Source: a virus. From it: 42,687 bases of DNA. Both the position numbers and the translations under genes were made by a program. Positions 2,063 to 42,687 of this stretch are shown here, in pieces. Numbering within the stretch: the stretch's first letter is position 1; each line of letters begins with the position of its first letter. The notes below the pieces were generated by a model. It made no database searches and had not been told where the DNA came from. It was given only the letters and a program-made list of their open reading frames with translations. The stretch spans positions 1 through 42,687 of the IMG/VR virus record IMGVR_UViG_3300037882_002580; one strand, 5' to 3'.

Positions 2063-2475
2063 ATTTTGAATTTATCGGCTAATGCGGCGGTCGGTGATCG
2101 TGTGCCCTGCCCTATGGCTGCGTATTTCGTTTTCAGAAGCTGCGGCAATGGTTGTGCAAGTTCTTCCAGGTTGCCGATGCGCCCTACTTCCTTGGCGGCC
2201 TGCAGTATCATCTGCATTTTCCTGGATACGCCCTTGGTGTGGATTTCATTCCAGTCATCGGTGTCTATGACGTGGGTGGCGTTCCACCCCATTGTCCCTT
2301 GCCAGTCTGGTACGATTTCCTGGATTTGGTCCCCCTTAATGGCGAGCCCATTGCTGAATACTCCGCGCTGTGTGGGATTCAGAAAGAGGAAGTATGCCTT
2401 GTGCGCTTCGGCTGCGGGGATACTGTGCTCTTGGTCGCGCCGGAATCCTACGATGAGTTTGATTTTGTACTTCAT
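2059..2475 (-). CDS. Hypothetical phage protein, 138 aa
   Basis: I place the start at the ATG at 2473-2475, which overlaps the TGA of the replication gene (ATGA). An upstream in-frame start at 2544 would overlap that gene by 73 nt and adds an unconvincing Cys-rich extension. The protein starts MKYKIKLIVGFRRDQEHSI, contains the patterns AHKAYFLFL and DWQGTMGWN, and ends in a helical part. A dedicated fold is likely, but I cannot name it. Confidence 0.72.
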   Translation of the reverse strand: MKYKIKLIVGFRRDQEHSIPAAEAHKAYFLFLNPTQRGVFSNGLAIKGDQIQEIVPDWQGTMGWNATHVIDTDDWNEIHTKGVSRKMQMILQAAKEVGRIGNLEELAQPLPQLLKTKYAAIGQGTRSPTAALADKFKI

Positions 2476-3554
2476 GAGAACGCGACGGGTGATTTTGATA
2501 ATGCTGCTTTCTTCCTGGCAGCAAAGGCTTCGAGCTTCACCCACTTGCTCTCAAGGTCGGCTGGGGTGCTGATGGTGGGGAAGTACTGCTCTGCCATGTG
2601 CGCCTGGATGAAGCCCACAATGGCGGTCAATCGTTCGAGGCCGTGAAGAGTGAAGAGTCGCTGTGCTGCTTCACGTTCGTGTTTGCGTTTAAAGCATTGA
2701 GCGATGGAGGGGTTTATTGCATCAAATAGGTCGATGACCTCGTTTGCATTTGGTGTGGTGGATTTCTTCGCTTCCGGCTCTGCCATTGAGTTAAGTTTAG
2801 TTAAGTTAGGTTGAGTTAAGTGCGATAGGGTACTTATACTGTACTTATAAGTAGTCGTATCGAGCGAAAAGTCTGGGTAGATTGCTGTCATTTTATGAAG
2901 CAATGACTCACTCTCCTTCAAAGTAGCCATTGCTTTTTCTGCGTGATAATGTGTGCCCTGAATGTCACGACCACAAAACTCAATAGCTGTCTGATTTCCC
3001 TTTTTTTGATTACATTCTCGACAAGCCAAAGCCATATTCGTGTATAGATCGCGCCCACCACGTGAAGCGGGGATTATGTGGTCGAGTTCAAAAGACGTGT
3101 CCGTTATTTGCGTATTGCAGTATCGGCATGTGAAATTGTCTCTGACTAACATCGCCTGGCGTTTAGTCAGATATGGGTTTTCATCATACTCGATACTGTC
3201 AAAATCGAGTGCAGCTCGAATATTTTGAGGTAGTTTTTCTAGCTCAGATACAATACCCTTCTTAACTTTAGGGCTTTCTTGATTTTGATGTTTGAGGAAA
3301 TTCTTTATTACAATCCAACCATCTATGTAGACAACCTTACCTTCTCGGGCAAATCGTCCAATAATTTTTGTAACCATCTCCTTTTCTATGCCGGTTTCTA
3401 GTGCAATTTTCTTGAGTGGTATCTCGTAGATGCCACAAATGTTCGTTGAAGTGTTGGTGAGGAAATAGAGAAACAATAGCTTCTCTATCGGGTCAAGATT
3501 GGCGGTATATCCGTCATCCCAAAACCGCGTGTTCACCATTCTGTTCTTTGACAT
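2472..3554 (-). CDS. Replication-initiator-like winged-helix protein with internal HNH domain
   Basis: 360 aa from the ATG at 3552-3554; an in-frame ATG at 3638 would add 28 residues over the leader hairpins. Residues 1-95 resemble the winged-helix N-terminus of phage replisome-organiser/DnaD-type proteins (RFWDDGYTANLDPIEKLLF, GWIVIKNFLKHQ). Residues 135-190 are a complete HNH nuclease: C143xxC146, D158-H159, N173, C178xxC181. Residues 270-350 resemble the C-terminal helical domain of phage replication proteins (NPSIAQCFKRKHEREAAQRL). Thus an HNH domain lies between the two halves of a replication protein. It could nick DNA to start replication or be a homing-type insertion. No Shine-Dalgarno site precedes the start. 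Confidence 0.75.
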   Translation of the reverse strand: MSKNRMVNTRFWDDGYTANLDPIEKLLFLYFLTNTSTNICGIYEIPLKKIALETGIEKEMVTKIIGRFAREGKVVYIDGWIVIKNFLKHQNQESPKVKKGIVSELEKLPQNIRAALDFDSIEYDENPYLTKRQAMLVRDNFTCRYCNTQITDTSFELDHIIPASRGGRDLYTNMALACRECNQKKGNQTAIEFCGRDIQGTHYHAEKAMATLKESESLLHKMTAIYPDFSLDTTTYKYSISTLSHLTQPNLTKLNSMAEPEAKKSTTPNANEVIDLFDAINPSIAQCFKRKHEREAAQRLFTLHGLERLTAIVGFIQAHMAEQYFPTISTPADLESKWVKLEAFAARKKAALSKSPVAFS

Positions 3555-3570
3555 GGCGGCTGGTCTTAAA

Positions 3571-3657
3571 AATAAAACCCCTCTGACCGAGGCTCGCCCT
3601 TCACAGTCGTAAAACTGTGTCGCTTGAGCACCCGTCATAGGGGTCTAATATCGGGTG
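3571..3657 (-). promoter_or_regulatory. Hairpin-rich leader of the replication gene
   Basis: Between the promoter at 3.7 kb and the ATG at 3554 the minus strand can form three hairpins: CACCCG/CGGGTG (3629-3657), CACAGT/ACTGTG (3602-3619), and CCTC/GAGG (3580-3592) followed by GGTTTTATTTTT. The last looks like a weak intrinsic terminator, so attenuation is possible. This is inference from base pairing only. Confidence 0.4.
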
Positions 3658-22988: not shown

Positions 22989-24281
22989 CTACTTAGGTGA
23001 CTGAAGTGCTGCACCGTATGCAGAAGACTTCACAGCGAACGAGATAACCTGTGCGGCCTGGTCTTGGAACATCTTGATTCCGTAAACAGTCCACGCGATC
23101 AAGTCTTCACCGATACGTGATTCTGGTGATGGGCGATTGGTCAGATTTGGGTCTTTCTGCACAACGAGTGAGATTGACTTTGAGAGACCGAAGAGCGCGT
23201 ACACCTTTTGCTTGGTTGCAGTCCATACATCGCCACCGGCTGTGAGGGTTTCAGAAACTACCACTGTGCCCCAACCAGATGCGACAAGGTTGAGTACATC
23301 TGAGCCTGCAACGTCAGTTGCGGTGATGTTCTTGAGCAAGCGGCGGTTTGCTGTCGATACTTCAAAGTATCCCGTTGCGCTGTTGAGGCCAGTTGCCGAG
23401 CCGTTGATAGCGTTCTGGAGAAGGATTCGATTTGCGTCAGGGTCTGCACCGATGTCAATTTCACCTGCGAGAGCGGGGATTGCGCGGAATGTCCAAGTGA
23501 CACCGTTCACCGTTACCGTGTCGCCTGCGGTAGGGTTGGTCGCAAGTGCAAGCTGTCCGGTCCATGGCAACGCATTTGAGAGGAAGATGTTAAATCCGAA
23601 GAGATAACCTTCGTATCCATTGCGTGATACCTGGTCGCCAAGAAGTGTGGCCTTTCCACCGAGGTAGAGTTCCACAGCACCTACGACTTCAGCCGGAACG
23701 ATAGCAATCGGCATGCCATCTGGCATTTCGAGCTGCATCTTTCCACCTCCATCGAAGCGCTTGTTGGTTACAACGTTGTTGAGGCGCAAGCGAGTGAGAG
23801 CAACGTTGAACATTGAAGCAACGTTTGCGCTGGTCACATCGAGGCCGTTTGTAGCTGTACCGGCACCTACGTTTCCGTCGTCCATCGCGTTTCCTGCACC
23901 AAGGTACGCTGCGAGAAGCACGTCACCATCAATCTGGTTGATGAGGGCGTTTGCAAGCTTCTTGCCGTACTTGCGCTTGAGAGGAAGGTGAGCCTGGAGC
24001 TCGTCAAGGTCCTTGACGTAAATCGAGGCTTCTTTTTCCTTGTTGATAGTCAGCGTCTCAGCAGTGTCGGTGATAGCCTGAGTTACATAGCTACCATCAG
24101 CACCCATGTCGTTGACCATAACATCAGACGCATATGAGCGACTGAGAACCTGGCCCTTGGTAAGTTGTGCTTCAAGTGAGGTCTCAGCGAGAACCTGATA
24201 TACAGGCTGTCGGAAATGACTCATCTGGTATTCCGTGTGGAACACCTGCTTGAAGGTCATTGTGTTGGGGTTTGCCGCCAT
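22989..24281 (-). CDS. HK97-fold major capsid protein with an inserted domain
   Basis: 430 aa. The core matches a P22/HK97-like capsid: N-arm (FKQVFHTEYQMSHFRQPVYQ), E-loop (SYVTQAITDTAETLTINKEK), spine helix (KRKYGKKLANALINQIDGDV), P and A domains, ending GIKMFQDQAAQVISFAVKS. Residues of about 241-360 are an additional domain (TAGDTVTVNGVTWTFRAIPA ... GEIDIGAD) placed inside the A-domain side, similar to surface domains seen in phage fibres and decoration proteins. It follows the scaffold by 32 nt. No Shine-Dalgarno site; the leader is A/T-rich. Confidence 0.85.
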   Translation of the reverse strand: MAANPNTMTFKQVFHTEYQMSHFRQPVYQVLAETSLEAQLTKGQVLSRSYASDVMVNDMGADGSYVTQAITDTAETLTINKEKEASIYVKDLDELQAHLPLKRKYGKKLANALINQIDGDVLLAAYLGAGNAMDDGNVGAGTATNGLDVTSANVASMFNVALTRLRLNNVVTNKRFDGGGKMQLEMPDGMPIAIVPAEVVGAVELYLGGKATLLGDQVSRNGYEGYLFGFNIFLSNALPWTGQLALATNPTAGDTVTVNGVTWTFRAIPALAGEIDIGADPDANRILLQNAINGSATGLNSATGYFEVSTANRRLLKNITATDVAGSDVLNLVASGWGTVVVSETLTAGGDVWTATKQKVYALFGLSKSISLVVQKDPNLTNRPSPESRIGEDLIAWTVYGIKMFQDQAAQVISFAVKSSAYGAALQSPK

Positions 24282-25346: not shown

Positions 25347-25565
25347 CTATGCGTCAAGTTCTACTGTGCCACCGGTCTTTTTGGCAAAACCACGGGCAAG
25401 GACCTCGAAGTCATCGCCGTGCTCTGCTTTGGTGTAGATACGTGAAATACCACCAAAGTGAACGGTTACGGATTCCTTCGCAGAAGCAGCCTTAGCAGCT
25501 TTCGCCGCTTCCTTTTCTGCTTCCTTAGCAGCTTTCGCCGCTTCCTTTTCTGCTTCTGTTGCCAT
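25347..25565 (-). CDS. 72-aa Ala/Lys/Glu-rich virion-region protein
   Basis: N-terminal half is a perfect coiled-coil repeat of KEAAKAAKEAE units; the C-terminal half (SVTVHFGGISRIYTKAEHG, then a short helix) is a small beta-alpha domain. The position between portal and scaffold suggests an assembly or head-minor protein. Repeats are also exact at DNA level (GCTTCCTTAGCAGC twice). Confidence 0.65.
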   Translation of the reverse strand: MATEAEKEAAKAAKEAEKEAAKAAKAASAKESVTVHFGGISRIYTKAEHGDDFEVLARGFAKKTGGTVELDA

Positions 25566-28727: not shown

Positions 28728-30332
28728 TTATTCATCTAGGCCGCTGCGCTCATAAGGTGCCTGCACATAGTTGCTTCCTGGGCGTGGTGCAGTAACTACA
28801 GCATGGTTCTTGAGCTGGTAGGCGATTGCGCATGCTATCAGGAGGTCAAAATGGCGCGTGGTAAGGCGTACATCGTCATCGCGGTCCATGAGGTCGTCAC
28901 GGGTGTAACTGCGTGCCTCAGCTATCAAATCAGGGTCTGAGAGAAGCAAGTGGCCGTCACCTACTGCCTTCATAAGCTCAAATAGCATTTTTGGCTTGGT
29001 ATCGCGGTTGGTATTCCATCCGTAGATGCGTGTGCGCGGGGGAAGCCCTGCCCGTGTGATTTCAGGTTCCTCAAAGTAGATGCGGGGGTAGTCCTGGTGC
29101 TTCAATACACCGATGCACATATCAAACTTGTTGTTTTCCGGTGCAATGAGTGGCTGTCCGAATAGGTCGCCCTGGCGTATGAGCTCATAGCCAAAAACAT
29201 CGGGCTTGATGGTGTTGCTCTTGAATGTTGCCACCACACGTGAGGGTATGGTTGAAAAGTCGATTATGACACTGGTGCTGCTGTCGAGCCCTACACCTCC
29301 CGCAACGTCTGCACCAACGCCATAGCGGTGCGACGGGTCAAATGGGTAGAATATGCGCAAGTCTGCCGATACTCGTACCGGCTCGCGTTTTGGCTGAAGG
29401 TCCAGCGTTGCACGATCAAAGAACACATCCGCACTTGCCGATGGTTCACAGAGATATTCCCCTTCAAAATCGTCTGCATTCTGTCTGAGGCGGTCAATGG
29501 CTTCTGTTGTGTATGCCGCTGGCCATGCAGAAACACCCCCACTGGTGATAGGCACAATCAAAACATCATAGACGCCTTTCTTTTCGACAAGCTTGTGCAC
29601 GTTTCCGCGCTCTGAAAGGTAGTTGCAGGTGTAGATAGATGCACCACCACGTGCGAGACCGTTTTTCGCCTCCTCCATGTTATCCCATATGGCCTGTGAC
29701 TCCACTGCACTGCGTAGGGTTTTGCGGGTTTCAAAGTCGTCAAACCATATGAGGTCTGGGCGTGCATCTTCCTGGAGCTGTCCGCGTTGGTCTGTGCCCA
29801 CTGTGCCCGCCCTCACCTTCACACCTGTGGCCGTGGTGAATGAAGCCATGGTCTCTTCACGCTTCTCTTCTGTCTTCACGAAAATCTCGGTGTACAGGTG
29901 GGCAACGATGGGGTTGATGAGCATGTTGTACACGTCGGTGACAGTCTGCTTTGCGTTCGCGATGTCCTTGGTGAGCACCTTGATGTATTTGATGCTGTGG
30001 TCTTCATCGTTGGCAATAGCAAAGGCGAAAAAAAGCTTGGTGCGTGTGGTCTTGGCTGCACCACGAAAGGCGATGTCTACGAATGGCTTTACGCCGCGAT
30101 AGGCATTGAGATTTTTCTGGTCGATGTCTTTGTGAAATGGTGCGTCTTCAACCTTGAAGTATTGCGGATAGTGCCAACGTGCCCAAAGCTGAAACTTAAA
30201 AAGCACCTCATTGTCGGGGGTATCAGAGTTAAAGCCGAAGAGTGCACGCTTCTCTTCTGGGGTTCCGTCGTCGAGGATTTCCTCAACTAAAGATTTGTTT
30301 GATGGCTGTTTTTGCTTTTTCTCTGTGCTCAT
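28728..30332 (-). CDS. terL: Terminase large subunit
   Basis: 534 aa. The ATPase domain has a variant Walker A (FRGAAKTTR, about residues 89-97) and Walker B plus catalytic acidic residues in LIWFDDFE (194-201). The RNase H-like nuclease follows, with D342 (GADVAGG), E399 (APENN) and D496 (HFDLLIACA). It translocates and cuts DNA at the portal. The gene overlaps the small subunit by 50 nt. Confidence 0.92.
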   Translation of the reverse strand: MSTEKKQKQPSNKSLVEEILDDGTPEEKRALFGFNSDTPDNEVLFKFQLWARWHYPQYFKVEDAPFHKDIDQKNLNAYRGVKPFVDIAFRGAAKTTRTKLFFAFAIANDEDHSIKYIKVLTKDIANAKQTVTDVYNMLINPIVAHLYTEIFVKTEEKREETMASFTTATGVKVRAGTVGTDQRGQLQEDARPDLIWFDDFETRKTLRSAVESQAIWDNMEEAKNGLARGGASIYTCNYLSERGNVHKLVEKKGVYDVLIVPITSGGVSAWPAAYTTEAIDRLRQNADDFEGEYLCEPSASADVFFDRATLDLQPKREPVRVSADLRIFYPFDPSHRYGVGADVAGGVGLDSSTSVIIDFSTIPSRVVATFKSNTIKPDVFGYELIRQGDLFGQPLIAPENNKFDMCIGVLKHQDYPRIYFEEPEITRAGLPPRTRIYGWNTNRDTKPKMLFELMKAVGDGHLLLSDPDLIAEARSYTRDDLMDRDDDVRLTTRHFDLLIACAIAYQLKNHAVVTAPRPGSNYVQAPYERSGLDE

Positions 30333-33810: not shown

Positions 33811-33838
33811 AAAAAAAGCGAGCCTATGCCCGCTTTTT
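33811..33838 (-). terminator. Intrinsic terminator of the primase-like gene
   Basis: AAAAAGCG/CGCTTTTT stem with continuing T run; it contains the TAG stop of the primase-like gene. Confidence 0.8.
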
Positions 33839-34435
33839 GATTGGTACGACGTTGGTTTCCGGCCAGTGGAGCTTCTCAGGGAGCTTTTTAGCGTCGCTGA
33901 TTATGGCATAGACCACGAGAAAACCTGTGTCCGTGCGTATGGGAGCCACGATATGGCCCTTGTAGTACCCGCGAACACATAAGCCGATACCCAGGCGCTC
34001 TGCATCGGGTGCAGTGATACCAAGGGCCTGCACGTCTTCATGTTCGTAAATGAGGCCTTTAAGGGGAGCAAAATCAGGGTGGGGAGCTTTCGGGTTTGAC
34101 GCCGTGCCCCCTTCTTGCTTTTGCGGCATTGTCGAGGAATTGTCCTCGTGTTTGATGTCGCGGTGCTCAAGAAGAAACTTTGCAGCTTCTTTGAGGCGCA
34201 TGTCTTTGCAGTGCATCACAAGATCAATGACGCTGCCGCCATAATCAGCAGCCTTGCAGTGGAATAGGTTGCGTGCGGGGTTGATAACAAGTGTTCTGTC
34301 ATCACCACCACATGCGGGGCATACCCCTCGCCAGTTCTCATTCTCTTTGTGGAACTTCATTTTCAGCCACACCATCGCCAACTCAATGGAGACGGTGGCC
34401 TTGATTTCTTCAAAGTCGATGTAAGCCATTGTCAA
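33824..34435 (-). CDS. DnaG-type (CHC2) primase zinc-finger protein without catalytic domain
   Basis: 203 aa. Residues of about 10-90 are a primase zinc-binding domain: CPACGGDDRTLVINPARNLF then HCKAADYGGSVIDLVMHCKD. Three cysteine ligands are visible; the usual fourth Cys (HCxxC) is replaced (HCKAAD). A disordered linker follows, then a 90-residue domain (EDVQALGITAPDAERLGIGL). No TOPRIM domain fits in this length, so it probably recognises templates or inhibits rather than polymerises primers. GGAGG lies 6 nt before the ATG at 34435. Confidence 0.8.
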   Translation of the reverse strand: MTMAYIDFEEIKATVSIELAMVWLKMKFHKENENWRGVCPACGGDDRTLVINPARNLFHCKAADYGGSVIDLVMHCKDMRLKEAAKFLLEHRDIKHEDNSSTMPQKQEGGTASNPKAPHPDFAPLKGLIYEHEDVQALGITAPDAERLGIGLCVRGYYKGHIVAPIRTDTGFLVVYAIISDAKKLPEKLHWPETNVVPIKKRA

Positions 34436-34868: not shown

Positions 34869-34947
34869 AGGAATGCGCTCTATCCCACCCCCGCTTGCAA
34901 GTAGGGGCAGAATGGAGCGTGCAAGCTAGTTGTTAATGTGCACCCTC

Positions 34948-34956
34948 ATTGTATCA
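34948..34956 (-). promoter_or_regulatory. Extended -10 promoter of the HNH-like gene
   Basis: TGATACAAT on the minus strand. On the plus strand the same place also offers TTGTTA (34930-34935), 16 bp, TATCAT (34952-34957) for the divergent 64-aa gene, so the two promoters overlap face to face. Confidence 0.4.
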
Positions 34957-34995
34957 TGTTATTATGTTCCTAGACAGCAGAAGGAGTACAGAAGC

Positions 34996-35190
34996 ATGTC
35001 TGAGAAAATCGAAACGTTCAGTGTCCGTGCGCCGGATGCAAACAACAAAGGCAAGTGGATTGAAATTGGCAAGGCTTGGCCCCGTCGCGATGGCGGGTTC
35101 AATCTGAAAATCAATTCGGTGCCAGTTGGAAATTGGGACGGGGGCGCGGTTGTTCTGCCTCCACTAAAACAAGATGAAGCACAAGCATAA
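34996..35190 (+). CDS. 64-aa conserved hypothetical protein
   Basis: ATG at 34996-34998 with AAGGAG 9 nt upstream; the frame runs open further upstream but without a better site. The product is beta-rich (MSEKIETFSVRAPDANNKGK, WIEIGKAWPRRDGGFNLKIN) and resembles small single-domain proteins I associate with proteobacterial plasmids and integrative elements. It is one of only three plus-strand genes and is followed at once by a terminator. Confidence 0.75.
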   Translation: MSEKIETFSVRAPDANNKGKWIEIGKAWPRRDGGFNLKINSVPVGNWDGGAVVLPPLKQDEAQA

Positions 35191-35304: not shown

Positions 35305-36330
35305 TCACACAGCTTTAAACCCCTTTTCCTCGTGAATGTAAAAGTCCGGCCTTTCTCCCGCGAGCGACCATGCGCCGTTGTGATTGTCGAAGCTCATCAT
35401 CGGCATGGCGAAGTCTCTGCGTCCGTCTGTGATTTTGAAACGCTCATCAAGGCGAAACCCGATAAAGTTTGAGCCCTTCCCCTCGGTAATTTTGGCATAC
35501 AGCTTCATGGCCGTTTCCATGTCGCCCTTGTTTGAAAACACAATAAGCACGAATGCGGGTATGGGCGTGGGGAACTTGAAGTACTTTTGGTATTCAGAAA
35601 TTGCTCCATCCTTTCGGCCTATAAATGCGCGGTACAGCCGTAGCATTTTCTCCACGGTCTTTTTCTTGCCCATGCCGGTGGTGTCTTCGGTGCCGCGATG
35701 CACCTCAAGAAAAAAGAGCCGTTGTTTGCCGCCATAGTCGATGATGAAACGTTGGTCTGGTTTCAGGGTGTACTTTTTCCCGTCAAGTTCCAGGTCGTAT
35801 GCGTTTGGTAACACCGAAACGCGGTGTGACGGTATGAATGTGCGCTCGCTGAACTGCCCTACCCCTATGCGGATTTCTGCCGTGATGATGTTCTGCATCA
35901 TGGCGTGCATTTTGTGGGCCTCGGTGTAGTAAAAACCTTCGGGATAGAGGCGGTGTTCTTTTGCAAGTAAGACGATAGCTGCATCACCGCATTGCTGCAC
36001 AATGTGCTGGTGACGGCTCGGCCATCCGTTCCCTATTGCGGGAAATTGCCATGCGGGGTGGTTGAGGTAGTGGCCCTTTTTGAGCTTCCCGTTTACGTCG
36101 TAAGTGATGGTTTCGTGAAAGAAATCGGTGAGCATCTGGCCGTTGCTTCGCGGGTCCACAAGGCCGTGTATTCGCAGTAATTCTTTGCAGTGGTCACTTG
36201 GTAAGCCGTCGGGATACCACGAAAGCTCCTCAAGAAGACGCAAACGTGCGCCTGTAGGTTTGTGTGGAGTCTTTCCCGTTGGTGTGCGGCGATTCGGGTA
36301 ACGGCGGCCCCTGCTGTCGTGAGTTTGCAT
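35305..36330 (-). CDS. Replication-relaxation-family-like protein
   Basis: 341 aa. N-terminal winged-helix region (ARLRLLEELSWYPDGLPSDH), a middle helical region, and a C-terminal nuclease-like core: PDQRFIIDYGGKQRLFFLEV, HRGTEDTTG, then a Lys-rich helix (KKKTVEKMLRLYRAFIG). This PD...ExxRGTE...K...Y order recalls the Replic_Relax family (PF13814) of plasmid and integrative element proteins, related to PD-(D/E)xK nucleases. The neighbours are two VirD4/HerA-like ATPases, the combination expected for DNA mobilisation. It starts after a 215-nt leader holding strong inverted repeats. Assignment at family level is moderate. Confidence 0.65.
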   Translation of the reverse strand: MQTHDSRGRRYPNRRTPTGKTPHKPTGARLRLLEELSWYPDGLPSDHCKELLRIHGLVDPRSNGQMLTDFFHETITYDVNGKLKKGHYLNHPAWQFPAIGNGWPSRHQHIVQQCGDAAIVLLAKEHRLYPEGFYYTEAHKMHAMMQNIITAEIRIGVGQFSERTFIPSHRVSVLPNAYDLELDGKKYTLKPDQRFIIDYGGKQRLFFLEVHRGTEDTTGMGKKKTVEKMLRLYRAFIGRKDGAISEYQKYFKFPTPIPAFVLIVFSNKGDMETAMKLYAKITEGKGSNFIGFRLDERFKITDGRRDFAMPMMSFDNHNGAWSLAGERPDFYIHEEKGFKAV

Positions 36331-36558
36331 GCCGTGATTTTAGAGAACGACGGGCGGGAATGTCAGTGCGGGGTGTTGCTGTATGTGCGCTCTGTACAGA
36401 AAGCGGGAGCATCCTCCCTAAATTGTGGGTAGTCCTACCGCCATGGGTAGGCGCACGCCTGGATGTCTCCTGATGAGCGGGGTGTACACCTGGCGCATCG
36501 GCCAATATTCGGCCCACAAAAGCTTTCTGTGCAAAGAACCATTTGTTGCCTCAGTATA
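36331..36558. other. Non-coding stretch before the relaxation-like gene
   Basis: About 228 bp without a credible ORF on either strand. Its main content is the inverted-repeat element at 36396-36529. An extended -10 box (TGATATACT, 36553-36561) at its right edge faces the relaxation-like gene. Confidence 0.5.
36396..36529 (-). other. Structured intergenic element, candidate oriT or regulatory RNA
   Basis: Closing stem ACAGAAAGC (36396-36404) and GCTTTCTGT (36521-36529) encloses several hairpins: GGGAG/CTCCC (36405-36419), two alternative GGTAG/CTACC pairings (36427-36450), the palindrome GGTGTACACC (36481-36490) and near-palindrome GGCC-AATATT-GGCC (36500-36514). It lies in the leader of the relaxation-like gene. 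Confidence 0.5.
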
Positions 36559-36561
36559 TCA
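36553..36561 (-). promoter_or_regulatory. Extended -10 box fused to a stop codon
   Basis: TGATATACT, whose TGA is the stop of the 37-aa gene. It would transcribe the structured leader and the relaxation-like gene. Confidence 0.5.
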
Positions 36562-36672
36562 CGTCAACGGCCTGCGTTCCTCTCGCAATCCACAAGGACA
36601 CTGCCAGATTTCAGCGTCATCATCACAACGTTGAAACTTGAGCAAGCGGTTGCATTGTGGTTCGTGCTTCAT
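36559..36672 (-). CDS. 37-aa mini zinc protein
   Basis: ATG at 36670-36672, TGA at 36559-36561. Sequence pattern MKHEPQCNRLLKFQRC then IWQCPCGLREERR gives four cysteines and a basic tail. An extended -10 box (TGATATACT, 36679-36687) ends 6 nt before the ATG, suggesting a leaderless transcript; the TG of that box is the stop codon of the ATPase gene. Confidence 0.5.
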   Translation of the reverse strand: MKHEPQCNRLLKFQRCDDDAEIWQCPCGLREERRPLT

Positions 36673-36678
36673 AGAAAA

Positions 36679-36687
36679 AGTATATCA
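36679..36687 (-). promoter_or_regulatory. Extended -10 box fused to the ATPase stop codon
   Basis: TGATATACT on the minus strand; its TGA (36685-36687) ends the VirD4-like gene. Identical in sequence to the box at 36553-36561. Confidence 0.5.
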
Positions 36688-38190
36688 CTTCGGCTCCTGG
36701 TCAATATCATCTTCTCCCCACACCTTGGGTTTCGGCCCTGTTAAGCCGCGTGGGGGTTCTGGGGGAAGGACTTCGCCTTCGTGGATGAATGGAGTGACGG
36801 TGGTAGCGGGCACACCTTTGATTTCGGGTTTTGGTGGGCGCGTTTGTGGTGGGCTTGTGATGATGGCCACGTTGGGGTCGTCGATTCCGGATACTGCAAA
36901 GTGTTTTTCAGGATATGAGGCTTTGAATTGCACACCGCAATGATGCAGTGCATCAAGAACGTCAGGGTCCTTGATATTGCTCTCGCGTTGGTGCGCGAAC
37001 GTGAAGGCCATCTTCATCTTCCGCGCCTGGTCGATGATGGTCGAGATGTTCGGGTCGGTGGCGATGTAATCGTGGCATTCGTCGATGTAACAGTACGTGG
37101 GCAAACGATATTGTGCGGCGACGTTGCCGCGTTGCTGTGAGACTGAAAGCAAGGTCGCAATGATGAAGCGTCCGAAAATCTCCGTGCCTTGTGGGCCTAA
37201 AAGAGCTTTGTCGGTGTCAACTAAAATGCAGCGCGGCTCTTGCAGCAATGAGTAAAAATCCAGGGCGCGTTTCTGTGTGAACATGCGGGCGAATGAGGGG
37301 CGTTGCAGTAGGCTATCAAGTCGCCATTGCAGCTCTTTCTTCGTGTCGGTGTACTGTTTTGGGTCGTCAAATGAATTGGTAAAAAAGAGCCGTGCAGGAG
37401 GCTGTAGGCGGGGGATGATTTGCCGATAGTGGTCCAGTCCTTTTGGCTGCAACAGTTTCAACATATCGGCAACGGTGCCCTCCGCTTCCATCACCAACTG
37501 CACCAAAAACGTCCATAGGGTGTTTTGCTTTGGGGTGAAGGTGCCACCTTCGCCTAGGGTTGCAGAAAACACGTAGGTGATGAGGTCGATTTGTGCCGTG
37601 TACATAATCTCTGCGTCACGAGCATTTTGTGGGGTCCGTGGCCGCGCAAAAATGTTCATGGGTGTGGTGGTGTCGATGGTGGTGCAAGGGTATGCGCGTT
37701 CGATGCGCCCTAAAAGCTCGTGCTTGCCTTGGCTGTCCATCACCAAAACAGTCGCCTGCTTCTTGGTCACTTCTTCCAGGTCTTGAAAGATTAGGTTTTC
37801 AAGTAGTGTGGTTTTGCCGCTTCCGCTTTCACCCGTTACCCATGTGTGCTGGAAGCGTCTTTTTGAGGCAAGGTTGGTGTAGAGGGGGTAGTCTTGAAAG
37901 TAATCCTGTTTGCTGTAGGGGAAAGGATTTGAGAACGCTTTTATAAGGTCAGCATCGCTCTTTTTCGGAATTATATATCGCGTATCATAGAAAATGCGGA
38001 AGGGTGTCTCTTTCCCGTACCGTTTGATAACGTCGGCCACTTGCTGAAATGTGGTGATTGCTTCTTCGGGGTAGTTATATCGTGCGTCGTGATCATACAT
38101 CGCGGTAAGGACGATGGCTTTTTCAACATCGGTGCACCACGAAAGGTCAACTTGCGGGAGAATGTCGCGCTCAATTTGTTCAGGTGTCAC
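36685..38190 (-). CDS. VirD4/TraG/HerA-type DNA-pumping ATPase
   Basis: 501 aa. Walker A GESGSGKT at residues 120-127, Walker B YCYIDECHD at 366-374 and the arginine-finger/sensor-like FAHQR at 398-402 identify an active RecA-fold ATPase of the conjugation coupling-protein/HerA group. No transmembrane helices at the N-terminus, unlike classical VirD4. The C-terminal 60 residues are Pro-rich and disordered. It overlaps its degenerate partner by 4 nt. Such ATPases feed single-stranded DNA or protein to a secretion channel; here no type IV secretion genes are present in the window. Confidence 0.82.
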   Translation of the reverse strand: MTPEQIERDILPQVDLSWCTDVEKAIVLTAMYDHDARYNYPEEAITTFQQVADVIKRYGKETPFRIFYDTRYIIPKKSDADLIKAFSNPFPYSKQDYFQDYPLYTNLASKRRFQHTWVTGESGSGKTTLLENLIFQDLEEVTKKQATVLVMDSQGKHELLGRIERAYPCTTIDTTTPMNIFARPRTPQNARDAEIMYTAQIDLITYVFSATLGEGGTFTPKQNTLWTFLVQLVMEAEGTVADMLKLLQPKGLDHYRQIIPRLQPPARLFFTNSFDDPKQYTDTKKELQWRLDSLLQRPSFARMFTQKRALDFYSLLQEPRCILVDTDKALLGPQGTEIFGRFIIATLLSVSQQRGNVAAQYRLPTYCYIDECHDYIATDPNISTIIDQARKMKMAFTFAHQRESNIKDPDVLDALHHCGVQFKASYPEKHFAVSGIDDPNVAIITSPPQTRPPKPEIKGVPATTVTPFIHEGEVLPPEPPRGLTGPKPKVWGEDDIDQEPK

Positions 38191-39236
38191 AGCCCCTCCA
38201 TGTATCGTTCAATGTTGCCGTCTACGGTTGTCGCGGGCGTACCGTACCATTGCTTCGTCTGGTTTCTCAAGCGGCGAAAGTTGCCAGGGCGTGCGGGGTA
38301 GCTGTGGGCGTGGGTGTGGATTTGGATAGTTTTTTGGAGGCGTACCAAGGCTTGACCATCGGGGATGTCGATGAGGTTTGAATTGCCAGGGTCAACGGCA
38401 AAATGTGCTTCCAGGGTTTTCGCGTCGGCAACACCAAGCCGTGCCGCCATGATAACAGCGGTGTGCACCATTTTCTCCCTGAGCGCGTCCGGCATTTCGT
38501 GCAGATAGTTGCAGGCCATGATGGGGATGGAAGGCCCCACGTGAAGCAAGGGGCGGGCGATAAAGGACACGCCCTGCATCTGTGACATTAGAAGTGCAGT
38601 CACCAGGTCGAAACGGTCGCCTTGAGGTAAGTCCACAATGAGGATACCAGGCTGCTTCAAGTCTCTTTTTTGAGACAGGATGCGGCGAACGGCTTTGTCC
38701 GTTTTGATGACGGTGAAGCGGTTGTCGAGCGAGTTGGTCTGGTCGTGTTGTTCGCGGCGAGTCCAGGCGTCAAAGTCCTCAAGCTCATGTCGTATGACGG
38801 GGTCTTTTATCATCCCCAGCACCCGCGCGCGGAACTGTGGGGAGCTGTAAAGGTAGGGTAACTGAAAGATGGTGCCGCTCGCTTCCACGAGAGCAAGGCA
38901 GGCCGGTATGAGGTACCTGTGGAGCTGTGTGGTGGTCACTGTTGAGGGGTATGCCGCTTCGATGGCGTCAGGTACCAGGTTGGCTGTGGGGATGTCCTTG
39001 AGGGGGTTAAAGCCCACGGGTCGGTCGTCATACACTTCAAAAAGTACCGTGTCGTGTGTTCGGTCTTTCGGCAGGAATGGCACCACGGCGTTTGCATCAC
39101 CAAAATACGAAACGGTTTTGCCTTCGTGGGCCGCGTCCAAAAACATCCTGGTCAAGGTTTCTGGGGAGCGCAAAATCAGCATCGTGGTGTCGTCGATGGT
39201 GAGTGGTGTGGTGTCGAGTTTGGTTCCTAGCTGCAT
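38187..39236 (-). CDS. Degenerate VirD4-like partner ATPase
   Basis: 349 aa. Shares the family phrase VGFNPLKDI (residues 74-82) and the core block KQPGILIVDLPQGDRFDLVT followed by IPIMACNYLHEMP, which aligns with the Walker B region of its neighbour, but I find no Walker A loop and the Walker B acidic pair is lost. It therefore looks like a non-hydrolysing paralogue that could pair with the active ATPase. The 4-nt overlap with that gene implies equal expression. A promoter-like TGTTACAAT lies at 39334-39342. Confidence 0.65.
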   Translation of the reverse strand: MQLGTKLDTTPLTIDDTTMLILRSPETLTRMFLDAAHEGKTVSYFGDANAVVPFLPKDRTHDTVLFEVYDDRPVGFNPLKDIPTANLVPDAIEAAYPSTVTTTQLHRYLIPACLALVEASGTIFQLPYLYSSPQFRARVLGMIKDPVIRHELEDFDAWTRREQHDQTNSLDNRFTVIKTDKAVRRILSQKRDLKQPGILIVDLPQGDRFDLVTALLMSQMQGVSFIARPLLHVGPSIPIMACNYLHEMPDALREKMVHTAVIMAARLGVADAKTLEAHFAVDPGNSNLIDIPDGQALVRLQKTIQIHTHAHSYPARPGNFRRLRNQTKQWYGTPATTVDGNIERYMEGL

Positions 39237-39333
39237 ACATGGCGACGCGATAACAAACGAGCATCACCGTGGCGTGTACAGGAGAAAGTTTGGTAGCGTG
39301 CCGCCGTCTGTGCGGTCGGAACTGTCCAGTGTC

Positions 39334-39342
39334 ATTGTAACA
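39334..39342 (-). promoter_or_regulatory. Extended -10 promoter of the ATPase pair
   Basis: TGTTACAAT on the minus strand, about 98 nt before the ATG at 39236. No -35 match. Confidence 0.4.
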
Positions 39343-39382
39343 GTTGTGTGCCACCTATCATCGTCCGTCTGTCCTCGCAGAG

Positions 39383-39489
39383 CGGGACGACTTCCCTACG
39401 TTCACCCGAAAAGGACACGCCCTGCGTTGTCCTTGAGGGCGTAAGTCTTCGAGAGATAAGGAGAAGATGAAGGTAGGGAAGTCGTCCCG
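39383..39489. repeat. 17-bp perfect inverted repeat enclosing nested hairpins
   Basis: CGGGACGACTTCCCTAC (39383-39399) and its exact complement (39473-39489). Inside, two mutually exclusive hairpins overlap: AAGGACA/TGTCCTT (39411-39417 with 39428-39434) and ACGCCCT/AGGGCGT (39417-39423 with 39436-39442). Imperfect pairing extends outward (GTCCGTC near 39363 with GACGGCGAT near 39499). Confidence 0.8.
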
Positions 39490-39532
39490 TAAGGGCGGAC
39501 GGCGATGTAGGTGGAATTGTATAGTGAAATGG

Positions 39533-39546
39533 CCGTTTGCAAACGG
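39533..39546. promoter_or_regulatory. 14-bp palindromic operator
   Basis: CCGTTTGCAAACGG is a perfect palindrome with core TTTGCAAA. A related 16-bp palindrome with core TTGCAA lies at 40571-40586, so both may bind the same regulator, possibly the AlpA-like protein. A -10-like TATACAAT is just downstream on the minus strand (39518-39525). Confidence 0.6.
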
Positions 39547-39624
39547 AATTGGCCCGATAGGGATACAAAGTACTGCCCGATACTGAAAAAGTGTAAGCGA
39601 ATTGCGGTCGTATCGGGGTGTGTT

Positions 39625-40053
39625 TTACCAAGTAAAGTGAAGTATGGCCACACCGCATGCAGCTGATACTGCAAGGAAGCCTAGGTCAAGTTTGTTCATA
39701 TCGGTGCCGTCGCGGTAGAGCAAATAGACAACAAAAAGTGCGCCGCAAAGAATTAGGGATTGTGCGGCTCGTGTTCCGTTTAAGTAAAATTCGTGGGTGA
39801 AGTATCTGTTGAATGTTTCGTAGATAAAAAGCCCAGCAAGTGCCATGAGAGCAAGGACGGAAGCGTCGGCGTCGCGGCGCTCAGTTATGATTGCAATGGT
39901 GTTTATGGCAATGTAGAGCGCCGGTACAGCAGCAACAATGTTGCGCAGTGTGGTGTTTTCGGGTGGCCGTTCGTCTGGTGGTGGGGGTAACTGTTGTGCG
40001 GGGCGGTCTTTGTTCAGTTGCTTCTTTAAAAACTCTTTCAGTTCGTCGCTCAT
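39625..40053 (-). CDS. Four-helix membrane protein, paralogue of the 81-aa neighbour
   Basis: 142 aa. The N-terminus DELKEFLKKQLNKDRP followed by PPPPDERPPE is shared with the adjacent gene. Then come four hydrophobic segments (about residues 35-56, 64-80, 93-111 and 121-138). A membrane protein next to the transfer-like ATPases could be the anchor for them. No named family. Confidence 0.65.
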   Translation of the reverse strand: MSDELKEFLKKQLNKDRPAQQLPPPPDERPPENTTLRNIVAAVPALYIAINTIAIITERRDADASVLALMALAGLFIYETFNRYFTHEFYLNGTRAAQSLILCGALFVVYLLYRDGTDMNKLDLGFLAVSAACGVAILHFTW

Positions 40054-40054
40054 C

Positions 40055-40300
40055 TTAGCTGTCCAAGTGTGGGGCGATAATGAGCCAGAAAAGCACCATG
40101 ATAATGCCTGCGATTGCAGCGATGTTGGCTATGGTATTACTTTGATACCAACCAAGCCACAGCGCAAAAAACGACACGGCTGCTAGGGCCAATATGGCAA
40201 GATTAAAGTGCGGGGTTTCTTTCGGTTTTGGTGGCGGTGGTGGCTCGGGCCGTTCTTTGTCGAGCTGTTTTTTAAGAAAGTCCTCTAGGTCTTTGCCCAT
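40055..40300 (-). CDS. Two-helix membrane protein with shared N-terminal motif
   Basis: 81 aa from the ATG at 40298-40300, with GGGGGA just upstream; a TTG at 40312 is an alternative. The N-terminus KDLEDFLKKQLDKERPEP then poly-Pro matches its neighbour (FLKKQLxKxRP plus PPPP). Two hydrophobic segments follow (ILALAAVSFFALWLGWY and IAAIAGIIMVLFWLIIA). The tandem pair arose by duplication of the cytoplasmic motif or by domain swap. Confidence 0.65.
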   Translation of the reverse strand: MGKDLEDFLKKQLDKERPEPPPPPKPKETPHFNLAILALAAVSFFALWLGWYQSNTIANIAAIAGIIMVLFWLIIAPHLDS

Positions 40301-40356
40301 GCCATCCCCCAAAAATGCAAAGGAGAGGAGGTTGGACCCTCCCCTCCCGTCTCCCG

Positions 40357-40551
40357 TTAGGGAGATGCAGTGTCGCGTTTGGAAATCATTTCCGCCTGCC
40401 AGTCCGTAATGTCCTCCAGTACCCAGGCAACTCTGTGACGACCAAGGCGGACCCGTTTGGGAACCTTTCCTTCATCCTCCAGGCGTTTCCAGTGTTGGCG
40501 GCTATACGGTTGCATTTTCGAAAGTGTCTTCCACGATATAAAGGTAGTCAT
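40357..40551 (-). CDS. AlpA/excisionase-like helix-turn-helix protein
   Basis: 64 aa from the ATG at 40549-40551; a longer in-frame start at 40599 would run through the palindrome. The pattern TTFISWKTLSKMQPYSRQHW, then EDEGKVPKRVRLGRHRVAW and DITDWQAEMI, is the AlpA/MerR-type wing-HTH used by phage excisionases and integrase activators. It lies 65 nt after the integrase gene. A TCTCCC/GGGAGA hairpin overlaps its end (40350-40365). Confidence 0.8.
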   Translation of the reverse strand: MTTFISWKTLSKMQPYSRQHWKRLEDEGKVPKRVRLGRHRVAWVLEDITDWQAEMISKRDTASP

Positions 40552-40570
40552 TGCAAGTCTCCAAAATGGA

Positions 40571-40586
40571 GAGGCTTGCAAGCCTC
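40571..40586. promoter_or_regulatory. 16-bp perfect palindrome before the AlpA-like gene
   Basis: GAGGCTTGCAAGCCTC, with a further TTGCAAG at 40551-40557 and a TCTCC/GGAGA hairpin between them (40558-40572). Probable operator or excisionase site. Confidence 0.6.
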
Positions 40587-40615
40587 GGGTTAGTGCCAAG
40601 GCGATGTTTTTTGTA

Positions 40616-41668
40616 TCAGCTTTTCTGGCTGTTTACGAGTCGCAAAATGTGCGCTTCGTATGCTTCGACTGCGAGGCGCATTTCGGGTTGGTGGGTGTAA
40701 CGCTGATACGTCGAAACGATGCCGCCGAAGCTTCCGCTCACATGGTTGAGCAGGCGTTCCGTGATGTGAATCGGTGTGCCGATGCGGGCATGCGTCGTGG
40801 CGTAGGTGCGGCGCAAGTCGTGGAGCGTCCAGGGGTCAATGGGTACCGCTCTGTCGAGCCGCGCTTTCGCTTTGCTCCACCCGTTGAACGTCAAGGCTCC
40901 GCTTGACAGTAGTGGTAAGGCGGTAGCGGGCAATGGGAAGGTGTGCTCGCGTCCGTTCTTGCTGTGGGCGGCGGGGAGTGTGGCGGTGTCGCCGTTCACA
41001 ATGAGGTTCTGGATTTCGCTTTTCCGGCACCCTGTCAAAATCAGAAGCTTGACGGTGCGGCCAAAAATGTCATCGCCGGAAGCGTTCCATACGGCGCGGA
41101 GTTCGTCATCGGTGAGCACCCTATCCCGTGGCGTTTCTTTGTACGGCATGCGCATGGCGGTAAGGGGTGAGTGCTCAAGAAGGCCACGGCGCACACACCA
41201 AAAGAAAAAGGTGCGGAGGTATTTGAAGGTGTGGTTTGCCTCTGATGGGGTTTCGTGCAGTTCATCGAGCAACGATTGCACGTCATGGCGCGTCACCAAG
41301 TGAAGGGATTTGGCCCAGGTGCAATGTTTGTTCATCACCCGTTCCATGGCCGCATGGGATTTGAGGCGTGATACGTGGAGCTTAAGAAAGTCGTCACGAG
41401 CCTCTAGAAACGCGCTGGCGGGGACGGTTCGTGGGTTTGTGGCCAAGAGTGCTTTTGCCCGTTTGCGTGCTTCCTGGAGGCTCACAGCGGGCCATAGGCC
41501 CACTCGTATGCGTTCCCTCAGTTTGCCACGGGTAACTACAAAGGTTTTGCGGGTTTTGCCGATGCGGATACCAAAGGCAGGCAATAGTGCGTCACCGTAA
41601 TAGCCTGGTGTTTTGACTGTCTCAATGAAGCGTTCAGTGAGCGCGTTTTGTCTCTTTTTGTCTCCCAC
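40616..41668 (-). CDS. int: Tyrosine-type integrase
   Basis: 350 aa with a GTG start at 41666-41668. The N-terminal part (residues 1-80) is the arm-binding DUF4102-like domain (PGYYGDALLPAFGIRIGKT ... RIRVGLWPAVSLQEARKRAK) of P4-type integrases. The catalytic domain shows R215 (TGCRKSE), K237, H283 and R286 (HDLRRTYAT), H309 (LLNHVSG) and tyrosine Y321 (STYQRY). It catalyses site-specific integration. tRNA-Arg lies 177 nt upstream, the type of target used by this family. It implies a temperate life style. Confidence 0.93.
   Translation of the reverse strand: MGDKKRQNALTERFIETVKTPGYYGDALLPAFGIRIGKTRKTFVVTRGKLRERIRVGLWPAVSLQEARKRAKALLATNPRTVPASAFLEARDDFLKLHVSRLKSHAAMERVMNKHCTWAKSLHLVTRHDVQSLLDELHETPSEANHTFKYLRTFFFWCVRRGLLEHSPLTAMRMPYKETPRDRVLTDDELRAVWNASGDDIFGRTVKLLILTGCRKSEIQNLIVNGDTATLPAAHSKNGREHTFPLPATALPLLSSGALTFNGWSKAKARLDRAVPIDPWTLHDLRRTYATTHARIGTPIHITERLLNHVSGSFGGIVSTYQRYTHQPEMRLAVEAYEAHILRLVNSQKS
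41646..41664. repeat. Direct repeat, int-start copy (GAGACAAAA pair)
   Basis: On the minus strand two GAGACAAAA units overlap the first codons of the integrase. The same 19-20 nt block recurs at 41821-41840 with one extra T/A, directly beside tRNA-Arg. Possible integrase arm-type or core sites. Confidence 0.6.
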
Positions 41669-41844: not shown

Positions 41845-41920
41845 TGGCCTCCCCGGACGGACTCGAACCGCCAATCGGCAAATTAGAAATTTGCTGCTTT
41901 TCCAGTTTAGCTACGGGGAG
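41845..41920 (-). tRNA. tRNA-Arg (TCT)
   Basis: Acceptor CTCCCCG/CGGGGAG (7 bp), D arm closed by GCT/AGC, anticodon stem GCAAA/TTTGC with loop TTTCTAA (anticodon TCT, reads AGA), T arm GGCGG/CCGTC with loop TTCGAGT. Discriminator G and an encoded CCA. Its 5' end overlaps the HNH gene by 14 nt. Confidence 0.95.
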
Positions 41921-42420: not shown

Positions 42421-42549
42421 TTAGATTGTACACCCCCGATGCCGTTCATATCCACTCCTCCGCGCGGTGTACTCCTGGCCTTGTACGATGGGGAGGTGGC
42501 ATTGGTGGCACTTTAATGCTTGGGGGCTTTTCTTGGTGTGGGTGGTCAT
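42421..42549 (-). CDS. 42-aa zinc-binding protein
   Basis: ATG at 42547-42549 overlaps the TGA of the 58-aa gene copy (ATGA). Starts MTTHTKKSPQALKCHQCHLP and ends with RHRGC, giving CxxC plus His/Cys ligands. Longer frames to 42636 lie inside the repeat in another frame and are not credible. Function unknown. Confidence 0.6.
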   Translation of the reverse strand: MTTHTKKSPQALKCHQCHLPIVQGQEYTARRSGYERHRGCTI

Positions 42550-42687
42550 ATCCACTGAATAAATAATACCTGCAACCGCGCGAGCTTCCGTTCGTATGTC
42601 CATTGTGCGTAAAACAGTGAGCGTGTGTACATCCAATTTCCTTTACCAAAACCGATGCATAAAATGTTGATGTAGCTTTCTGCGTGG
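42546..42687 (-). CDS. 58-aa hypothetical protein, copy B, 5' end cut by the window edge
   Basis: The last 46 codons and TGA (42546-42548) of a second copy of the gene at 201-377. The protein differs little, but it is followed by a zinc-protein gene instead of the membrane-type gene seen after copy A. Confidence 0.7.
   Translation of the reverse strand, partial: HAESYINILCIGFGKGNWMYTRSLFYAQWTYERKLARLQVLFIQWI
42550..42687. repeat. Terminal near-identical repeat, right copy
   Basis: Matches 205-342 with five mismatches (see the left copy); ends at the window edge. Confidence 0.9.

Follow-up and report, generated by a model that had tools for sequence, protein, structure and literature searches.

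Genes of the block

The 42,687-bp IMG/VR virus record IMGVR_UViG_3300037882_002580 (analysed over its whole length and hereafter called the window) carries terminase, capsid and tail genes, and between its integrase and packaging genes, on the same strand, lies a block of three genes preceded by a non-coding hairpin (Table 1). The block encodes a VirD4-type ATPase resembling type IV coupling proteins (T4CPs), a second VirD4-like protein without a Walker A motif (pseudo-T4CP), and a protein related to the Replic_Relax family, which contains relaxases of the MOBC class. A first-pass annotation, made from the sequence alone, had described the three open reading frames (ORFs) and read the motifs GESGSGKT and CYIDECHD in the ATPase; the ORFs are at the stated positions, on the minus strand, and GESGSGKT and YCYIDECHD are there. 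The same block was found in three related phage records, G001, G003 and G013.

The nearest named relatives of the window T4CP are plasmid T4CPs, from Sulfitobacter (33% identical) and Methylomagnum (28%), and the T4CP of G013 is 36% identical to the Methylomagnum protein. A profile of the phage ATPases matched plasmid T4CPs at E = 1e-68 in profile-profile comparison, and SXT_TraD was the top NCBIfam match, far below its cut-off. In the structural model, the usable core of which comprises residues 113-423, Foldseek found TrwB and VirB4 to be nearest, and VIA-align gave Z scores of 18.2 for VirB4, 17.1 for DotL, 16.8 for TrwB, 16.8 for DndH, at most 14.8 for HerA and 8.8 for FtsK. Since the leading scores differ little, the model supports an ATPase of the type IV secretion system (T4SS) type but no single family. 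Its Walker motifs, the profile match and the structural ranking agree with what characterises a T4CP, namely Walker A and B and a T4CP-like nucleotide-binding domain into which a helical domain is inserted. A role as packaging motor, which would have spoken against the first-pass reading, was ruled out, as the packaging motor of the phage (terminase large subunit, TerL) is a separate gene and the model lies nearer to VirB4, TrwB and DotL than to HerA or FtsK.

The pseudo-T4CP gene overlaps the T4CP gene by 4 nt, suggesting that the two are translationally coupled. The 349-aa pseudo-T4CP alone had no match in library searches, and a profile built from it and its three phage homologues aligned over about 280 columns with the phage ATPases (E = 4e-10) and with plasmid T4CPs (E = 3e-14), in agreement with its earlier description as a coupled paralogue lacking Walker A. 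The copies of the window, G013 and G003 have lost the P-loop; that of G001 has a near-canonical GGQGKST together with IDD. In the phylogenetic tree this G001 copy groups with an Embleya T4CP (100/98, long branch) and not with the neighbouring T4CP, suggesting that the pseudo-T4CP descends from a second, separately acquired T4CP rather than from a fresh duplication. An origin as a VirB4 remnant was ruled out, the match to an Embleya VirB4-like ATPase being E = 0.26 versus E = 1e-18 to an Embleya VirD4-like protein. We speculate that the T4CP and the pseudo-T4CP form a mixed ring; to our knowledge, an inactive partner of a coupling ATPase has not been studied.

PF13814 is the MOBC relaxase domain, PF13814 or CloDF13 MobC being listed as MOBC, and MOBC relaxases are akin to restriction endonucleases and not to HUH enzymes (PMC5357655, PMC12857230). 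The 341-aa product of the third gene matched phrog_9381 ('replication initiation by nicking') at E = 8.5e-6, and a four-phage profile matched five plasmid Replic_Relax proteins (hhalign, 97.5%, E = 6.5e-12, 257 columns), so that the first-pass assignment to Replic_Relax holds at the profile level. The plasmid Replic_Relax proteins tested score PF13814 at E = 7.5e-8 to 2.7e-36, and CloDF13-type MobC matches it over its whole length at E = 8.2e-22. The restriction-endonuclease-like core expected of MOBC relaxases combines a winged helix with a PD-(D/E)XK fold; D192, E209 and R212 are invariant in five aligned proteins. On these matches, the 341-aa protein is probably a relaxase of the non-HUH, restriction-endonuclease-like MOBC family. 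The earlier statement that no relaxase with an HUH motif is visible needs one correction: a relaxase of another family is probably present.

A candidate origin of transfer

The non-coding region upstream of the pseudo-T4CP gene (39237-39624) is far more structured than expected by chance, with z scores of -5.8 for the DNA fold and -6.8 for the RNA fold and 0 shuffles as good. Two non-coding flanks rich in inverted repeats had been reported; this one is indeed strongly structured, whereas the other non-coding gaps contain weaker repeats only. Its hairpin is the sole inverted repeat of its kind in the 42.7-kb window, and a scan for long spaced inverted repeats in the four phage genomes gave a single hit in each of three genomes and two in G001. 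In all four phages the interval between the integrase and pseudo-T4CP genes holds a hairpin with arms of 21-22 nt and spacers of 63, 52, 51 and 53 nt, a placement for which the product of interval fractions is 4e-6. The arm sequences differ among the phages yet remain complementary. Moreover, GTCG lies 3-5 nt from the outer arm end in all four phages (5 nt in the window, on the 3' arm) and in CloDF13; in a shuffle test made after this pattern had been seen, 16 of 200,000 sets of shuffled arms were as good for the four phage arms and 0 when the CloDF13 arm was added.

In three MOBC plasmids fetched afterwards, the gap immediately preceding the T4CP gene contains a hairpin whose arms are 19-22 nt and whose spacers are 55-69 nt long, with GTCG or GTCA at the equivalent place. 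The CloDF13 hairpin was detected only by a separate repeat search (84% arms), the inverted-repeat scan showing its nested outer arms; the Methylomagnum plasmid has a shorter, nested hairpin, and the scan found no comparable hairpin at the T4CP and Replic_Relax pairs of Sulfitobacter, Agrobacterium and S. fredii. A covariance model was built solely from four MOBC plasmid hairpins and run with filters off; E-values from this tool are rough. Its top match in the window was 39380-39492 on the minus strand (E = 0.021, 16.0 bits), ahead of the next locus at E = 1.1, and in G001 and G013, too, the phage hairpin ranked first (E = 0.0013 and 0.0016, respectively). Not every hairpin fits this model, since the second hairpin of G001 scored just E = 5. 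In the MOBC plasmid pMET1 the order is oriT-mobB-mobC, oriT being the origin of transfer, and the nic sites lie within an inverted repeat (PMC2262945); mapped nic sites are described for plasmids only. Taken together, the conserved placement, the GTCG motif, the hairpins of MOBC plasmids, the covariance model and the pMET1 order make the phage hairpin a good oriT candidate.

Other identities were tried for the hairpin and rejected: it has no Rfam match as an RNA, and, considered as a terminator, it is not followed by a T-run. CTATCG direct repeats, considered as a binding site nearby, cluster suggestively in G013 and G003, but the background is rich in CTATCG and the window has a single copy; no such site is claimed. 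A related phage without the block, G012, has a perfect 22-nt hairpin with an 83-nt spacer (L050 13172-13298) near a phrog_14105 homologue and far from any T4CP.

Distribution and evolution

Searching IMG/VR with TerL yielded 22 relatives at 55-68% identity and one remote relative (26%), and a head-protein search added one further record, G013; single-protein searches of viral_contigs with the T4CP and with the pseudo-T4CP gave no matches. The T4CP is present in three (G001, G003 and G013) of the 14 related records searched, and these and the window come from different metagenome records. As in the window, their order is integrase, pseudo-T4CP, T4CP, MOBC-like gene, CHC2 zinc-finger gene and then terminase. 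The first-pass annotation had proposed looking for this synteny in other phages, where it recurs, and in Patescibacteria, to which nothing ties the phage.

The T4CPs are 26-31% identical across the phages, compared with 65-68% for the terminases; a single phage T4CP clade is weakly rejected (AU p = 0.026), and the G013 T4CP groups with plasmid T4CPs. On these three observations, the block has probably moved between phages and plasmids. T4CP and Replic_Relax genes stand side by side on Sulfitobacter, Sinorhizobium and Agrobacterium plasmids and in an actinobacterial conjugation operon. In Methylomagnum, a close source of T4CPs related to those of the phages, both genes are on one plasmid, with a CHC2 gene near the T4CP gene.

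Two further observations concern neighbours of T4CP genes. A similar small gene, possibly for an accessory mobilization protein, precedes the T4CP gene in G013 (L047 9523-9987) and in a Methylococcales contig (L058 3476-3904). In Microcystis phage Mwe-JY31 (L002), a T4CP-like gene precedes an unannotated 299-aa gene that resembles those for Replic_Relax proteins and lies beside a ParA gene; this record may be a plasmid-like element.

Phage genome context

The first-pass annotation had taken the window for a phage genome, which TerL and the major head protein bear out. A RecE-like exonuclease gene is also encoded, and, going downstream from the block, the first gene that belongs to a known family is the CHC2 gene in all four phages. 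The window ends (187-342 and 42531-42687) share a 157-nt direct repeat, 93% identical, which fits the imperfect overlap of a genome that is circular or terminally redundant, or else two strain variants. Because phage genes flank the integrase on both sides in G001, the window and its relatives are probably phage genomes rather than prophage edges.

Table 1. Features of the window, those of the block first.
Feature	Positions	Strand	Basis or remarks
MOBC-like (Replic_Relax) protein, 341 aa, candidate non-HUH relaxase	35305-36330	-	PF13814, phrog_9381, profile match
VirD4-type coupling ATPase (T4CP), 501 aa	36685-38190	-	Walker A GESGSGKT, Walker B YCYIDECHD
Pseudo-T4CP, 349 aa, VirD4-like fold predicted, without Walker A	38187-39236	-	Profile matches; homologues at the same place in three relatives
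Candidate oriT hairpin	39383-39489	-	Arms 39383-39404 / 39468-39489, 22 nt, 95% complementary, 63-nt spacer
Small membrane protein, 142 aa, 3 hydrophobic segments	39625-40053	-	Hydropathy; no family of note
Small membrane protein, 85 aa, 2 hydrophobic segments	40055-40312	-	Hydropathy; N-terminus resembles neighbour's by eye
AlpA-type regulator / excisionase	40357-40599	-	PF05930 above cut-off; G013 homologue next to integrase
Tyrosine integrase	40616-41668	-	PF00589 and PF13356 above cut-off; adjoins tRNA-Arg 41845-41920
CHC2 zinc-finger (primase-like) protein	33824-34435	-	PF01807 E = 9.7e-10; homologues in relatives
Terminase large subunit (TerL), the phage's own packaging motor	28728-30332	-	phrog_38 E = 3.3e-23
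Major head protein	22989-24281	-	phrog_267 E = 5.9e-17
DnaA/DnaD-like replisome organiser	2472-3638		

A whole tRNA gene adjoins the integrase (Arg in the window; Gln in G001, L041 6350-6421) although phage genes follow beyond it, and no second copy of the tRNA-Arg end, as attP or host flank, was found within the window. Two paired membrane proteins had been noted next to the block and are present; such tandem pairs of small membrane or exported proteins separate AlpA from the hairpin in the window (39625-40312) and also in G003 (L042 2653-3509), are unrelated in sequence by eye, and may serve in exclusion or lysogenic conversion. Near the block, just one plus-strand ORF is of appreciable size (34930-35190, 86 aa); it resembles small conjugative-element proteins by eye and had no library match. 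Elsewhere in the window, a 15-nt minisatellite (776-990) lies within ORF 390-1019 (phrog_14105), and a perfect 34-nt tandem duplication (25490-25556) lies in or beside a small ORF among the structural genes. One terminase relative (52%) sits in a Methylococcaceae metagenome-assembled genome, and our guess is a proteobacterial host, perhaps a methanotroph.

A probable mobilization module in a temperate phage lineage

We consider the block to be, probably, a MOBC-type mobilization module (oriT-T4CP-relaxase) built into a lineage of temperate tailed phages. By sequence comparison, its parts are homologous to those of mobilization systems, their order is conserved and its hairpin is of the MOBC-plasmid type. 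The first-pass annotation had left the choice between mobilization, replication and defence; mobilization is favoured because the module also has the oriT-like hairpin common to MOBC plasmids, and the other two are rated lower.

Nicking, docking and transfer are inferred, as is any part that the inactive ATPase, the CHC2 gene product or the small membrane proteins may play. The hairpin would act as the origin of transfer: after excision, the MOBC-like protein would bind it and nick one strand, and the T4CP, perhaps joined to its inactive partner in a ring or other complex, would dock the nicked DNA on a type IV secretion channel that a co-resident conjugative element supplies, and pump the strand out. 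CloDF13 MobB operates in this way, the channel being that of R388 (PMC7431656). Besides travelling in virions, the excised phage genome could thereby pass between cells by contact, as had been supposed from the sequence. No match to PF19044 (VirB4-like) or PF03743 (VirB10-like) was found in the four phage records, in line with the first reading, other channel components not having been searched; since no T4SS channel gene was found, the phage looks mobilizable and not self-conjugative. That an integrating phage lineage keeps a working module, with two transfer routes (virions and the type IV secretion channels of other elements) and a coupling ATPase with a dedicated inactive partner, is a proposal whose chances we regard as evenly balanced.

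Several results weigh against the mobilization module. The 341-aa protein by itself scored PF13814 below the curated cut-off (E = 0.0024, 18.4 bits versus 25.3), and its counterparts gave E = 0.0041 in G013, 0.012 in G003 and no match in G001. The phage profile compared directly with CloDF13 MobC reached only E = 0.043, which is not significant, the candidate tyrosine is replaced by W in G003, and the AlphaFold model of the protein was unusable (pLDDT 36). In view of this non-significant direct match and of the lack of a usable fold model, we use the label 'MOBC-like' for a divergent relative connected through a chain of homology, with predicted activity only. The G003 hairpin scored merely E = 4.3 with the covariance model, and the covariance search with default filters gave no match. 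Other related phages, such as G012 (46.5 kb), are without the module, which is therefore accessory. Furthermore, hydropathy revealed no transmembrane segment in the T4CPs of the window and G013, and 3 and 4 hydrophobic segments in those of G003 and G001, respectively. An N-terminal transmembrane anchor is frequent in T4CPs, though neither universal nor strictly defining. The transmembrane segment of CloDF13 MobB is essential for mobilization (PMC7431656). The missing anchor is a weak point that lessens the T4CP claim for the window phage; the small membrane proteins encoded upstream might supply it.

Among the alternatives, the one that survives best, although unlikely, is a replication or segregation unit, in which the MOBC-like protein would nick the hairpin so that the excised phage replicates by rolling circle, with the ATPase moving or partitioning DNA within the cell. 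The annotation of phrog_9381 and the primase-like CHC2 gene following the module in all four phages are consistent with it, and some relaxases, such as MOBT of ICEBs1, also replicate their element (PMC5357655). However, the window has a separate DnaA/DnaD-like replisome organiser, related phages do without the module, a VirD4-type pump is not expected for replication, and the hairpin matches those of mobilization plasmids.

A unit for defence or inter-element conflict, of the HerA-ATPase-plus-nuclease type, is considerably less probable still. HerA-like ATPases are known in defence systems, the window ATPase resembles PADLOC mad8 (E = 5e-11; relatives down to 5e-17), and its fold matches include HerA-Sir2, HerA-DUF4297 and DndH; but the other two proteins had no PADLOC match, no MADS or HerA partner genes were found among the proteins scanned, T4SS ATPases and T4CPs outrank HerA structurally, and the shared oriT-like hairpin would be left unexplained. 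We give just as little credence to a relic, that is, a module acquired from a plasmid by recombination and decaying unused. One of its two ATPases lacks the P-loop in three of the four phages, and the phage T4CPs do not form one clade, as the AU test above indicates; nevertheless, four diverged phages have kept the reading frames intact, Walker A and B persist in every copy of the active T4CP, and the hairpin arms still pair in spite of their differing sequences. Least probable is an interference device that would attach to a resident T4SS and block or divert the conjugation of competing plasmids instead of moving the phage, since, although an inactive T4CP-like protein could conceivably poison a T4CP ring, neither a relaxase nor an oriT-like hairpin would be needed.

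Phages and conjugative elements are usually regarded as separate routes of gene transfer. If the mobilization reading is true, a conserved phage lineage that has an oriT, a coupling ATPase and a relaxase of its own would blur this border, and a temperate phage could gain a wider host range. A few genes and a laboratory helper plasmid would suffice for a direct test, and the hairpin common to MOBC plasmids and phages offers a means to search for the oriTs of the poorly known MOBC family.

Comparison with known mobilization systems

Already known are MOBC modules, integrative and mobilizable elements (IMEs) with VirD4 and PF13814 and, among P1-like phage-plasmids, a few that bear mob or oriT (PMC5357655, PMC10879196). 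As far as could be found, the literature holds no description of a conserved MOBC module with an oriT candidate and an inactive T4CP partner in an integrating tailed-phage lineage.

The oriT-mobB-mobC region of CloDF13, representing the MOBC1 mobilizable plasmids, resembles the phage in having a T4CP gene followed by a PF13814 relaxase gene and, immediately before them, a long inverted repeat with GTCG close to the end of an arm; it likewise has no channel genes of its own (PMC7431656). Different from CloDF13, the phage module resides in a tailed-phage genome alongside integrase and virion genes, includes an extra pseudo-T4CP, and encodes a very divergent relaxase and, in the window, a T4CP without transmembrane segments. 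The proteobacterial plasmids Sulfitobacter NZ_CP081110, Methylomagnum pRS11DPr5 and S. fredii pSfHH103a2 have the closest T4CP sequences, and the order of T4CP and then Replic_Relax gene is found on small proteobacterial plasmids as in the phage; these plasmids differ in carrying Rep/ParA genes and in being typed as non-mobilizable, and no pseudo-T4CP was found beside their gene pairs.

Class 8 streptococcal IMEs (VirD4, Rel_PF13814/MobC and integrase) share the compact mobilization module (PMC5357655) but have a serine integrase, belong to Firmicutes and lack virion genes. HerA defence ATPases and MADS mad8 belong to the same ATPase superfamily, whereas the phage has no defence partner genes and its ATPase is structurally nearer to those of T4SSs. 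Finally, P1-like phage-plasmids and P1-derived plasmids with mob/oriT likewise bear mobilization functions on phage-related replicons (PMC10879196); the E. coli IncY plasmid pPK5074-69kb (L062, a P1-type IncY replicon), which carries a MOBC module with the same hairpin, fits these published P1-derived mobilizable plasmids. Compared with the P1 type, the integrating phages of the window lineage retain terminase, capsid and mob genes together.

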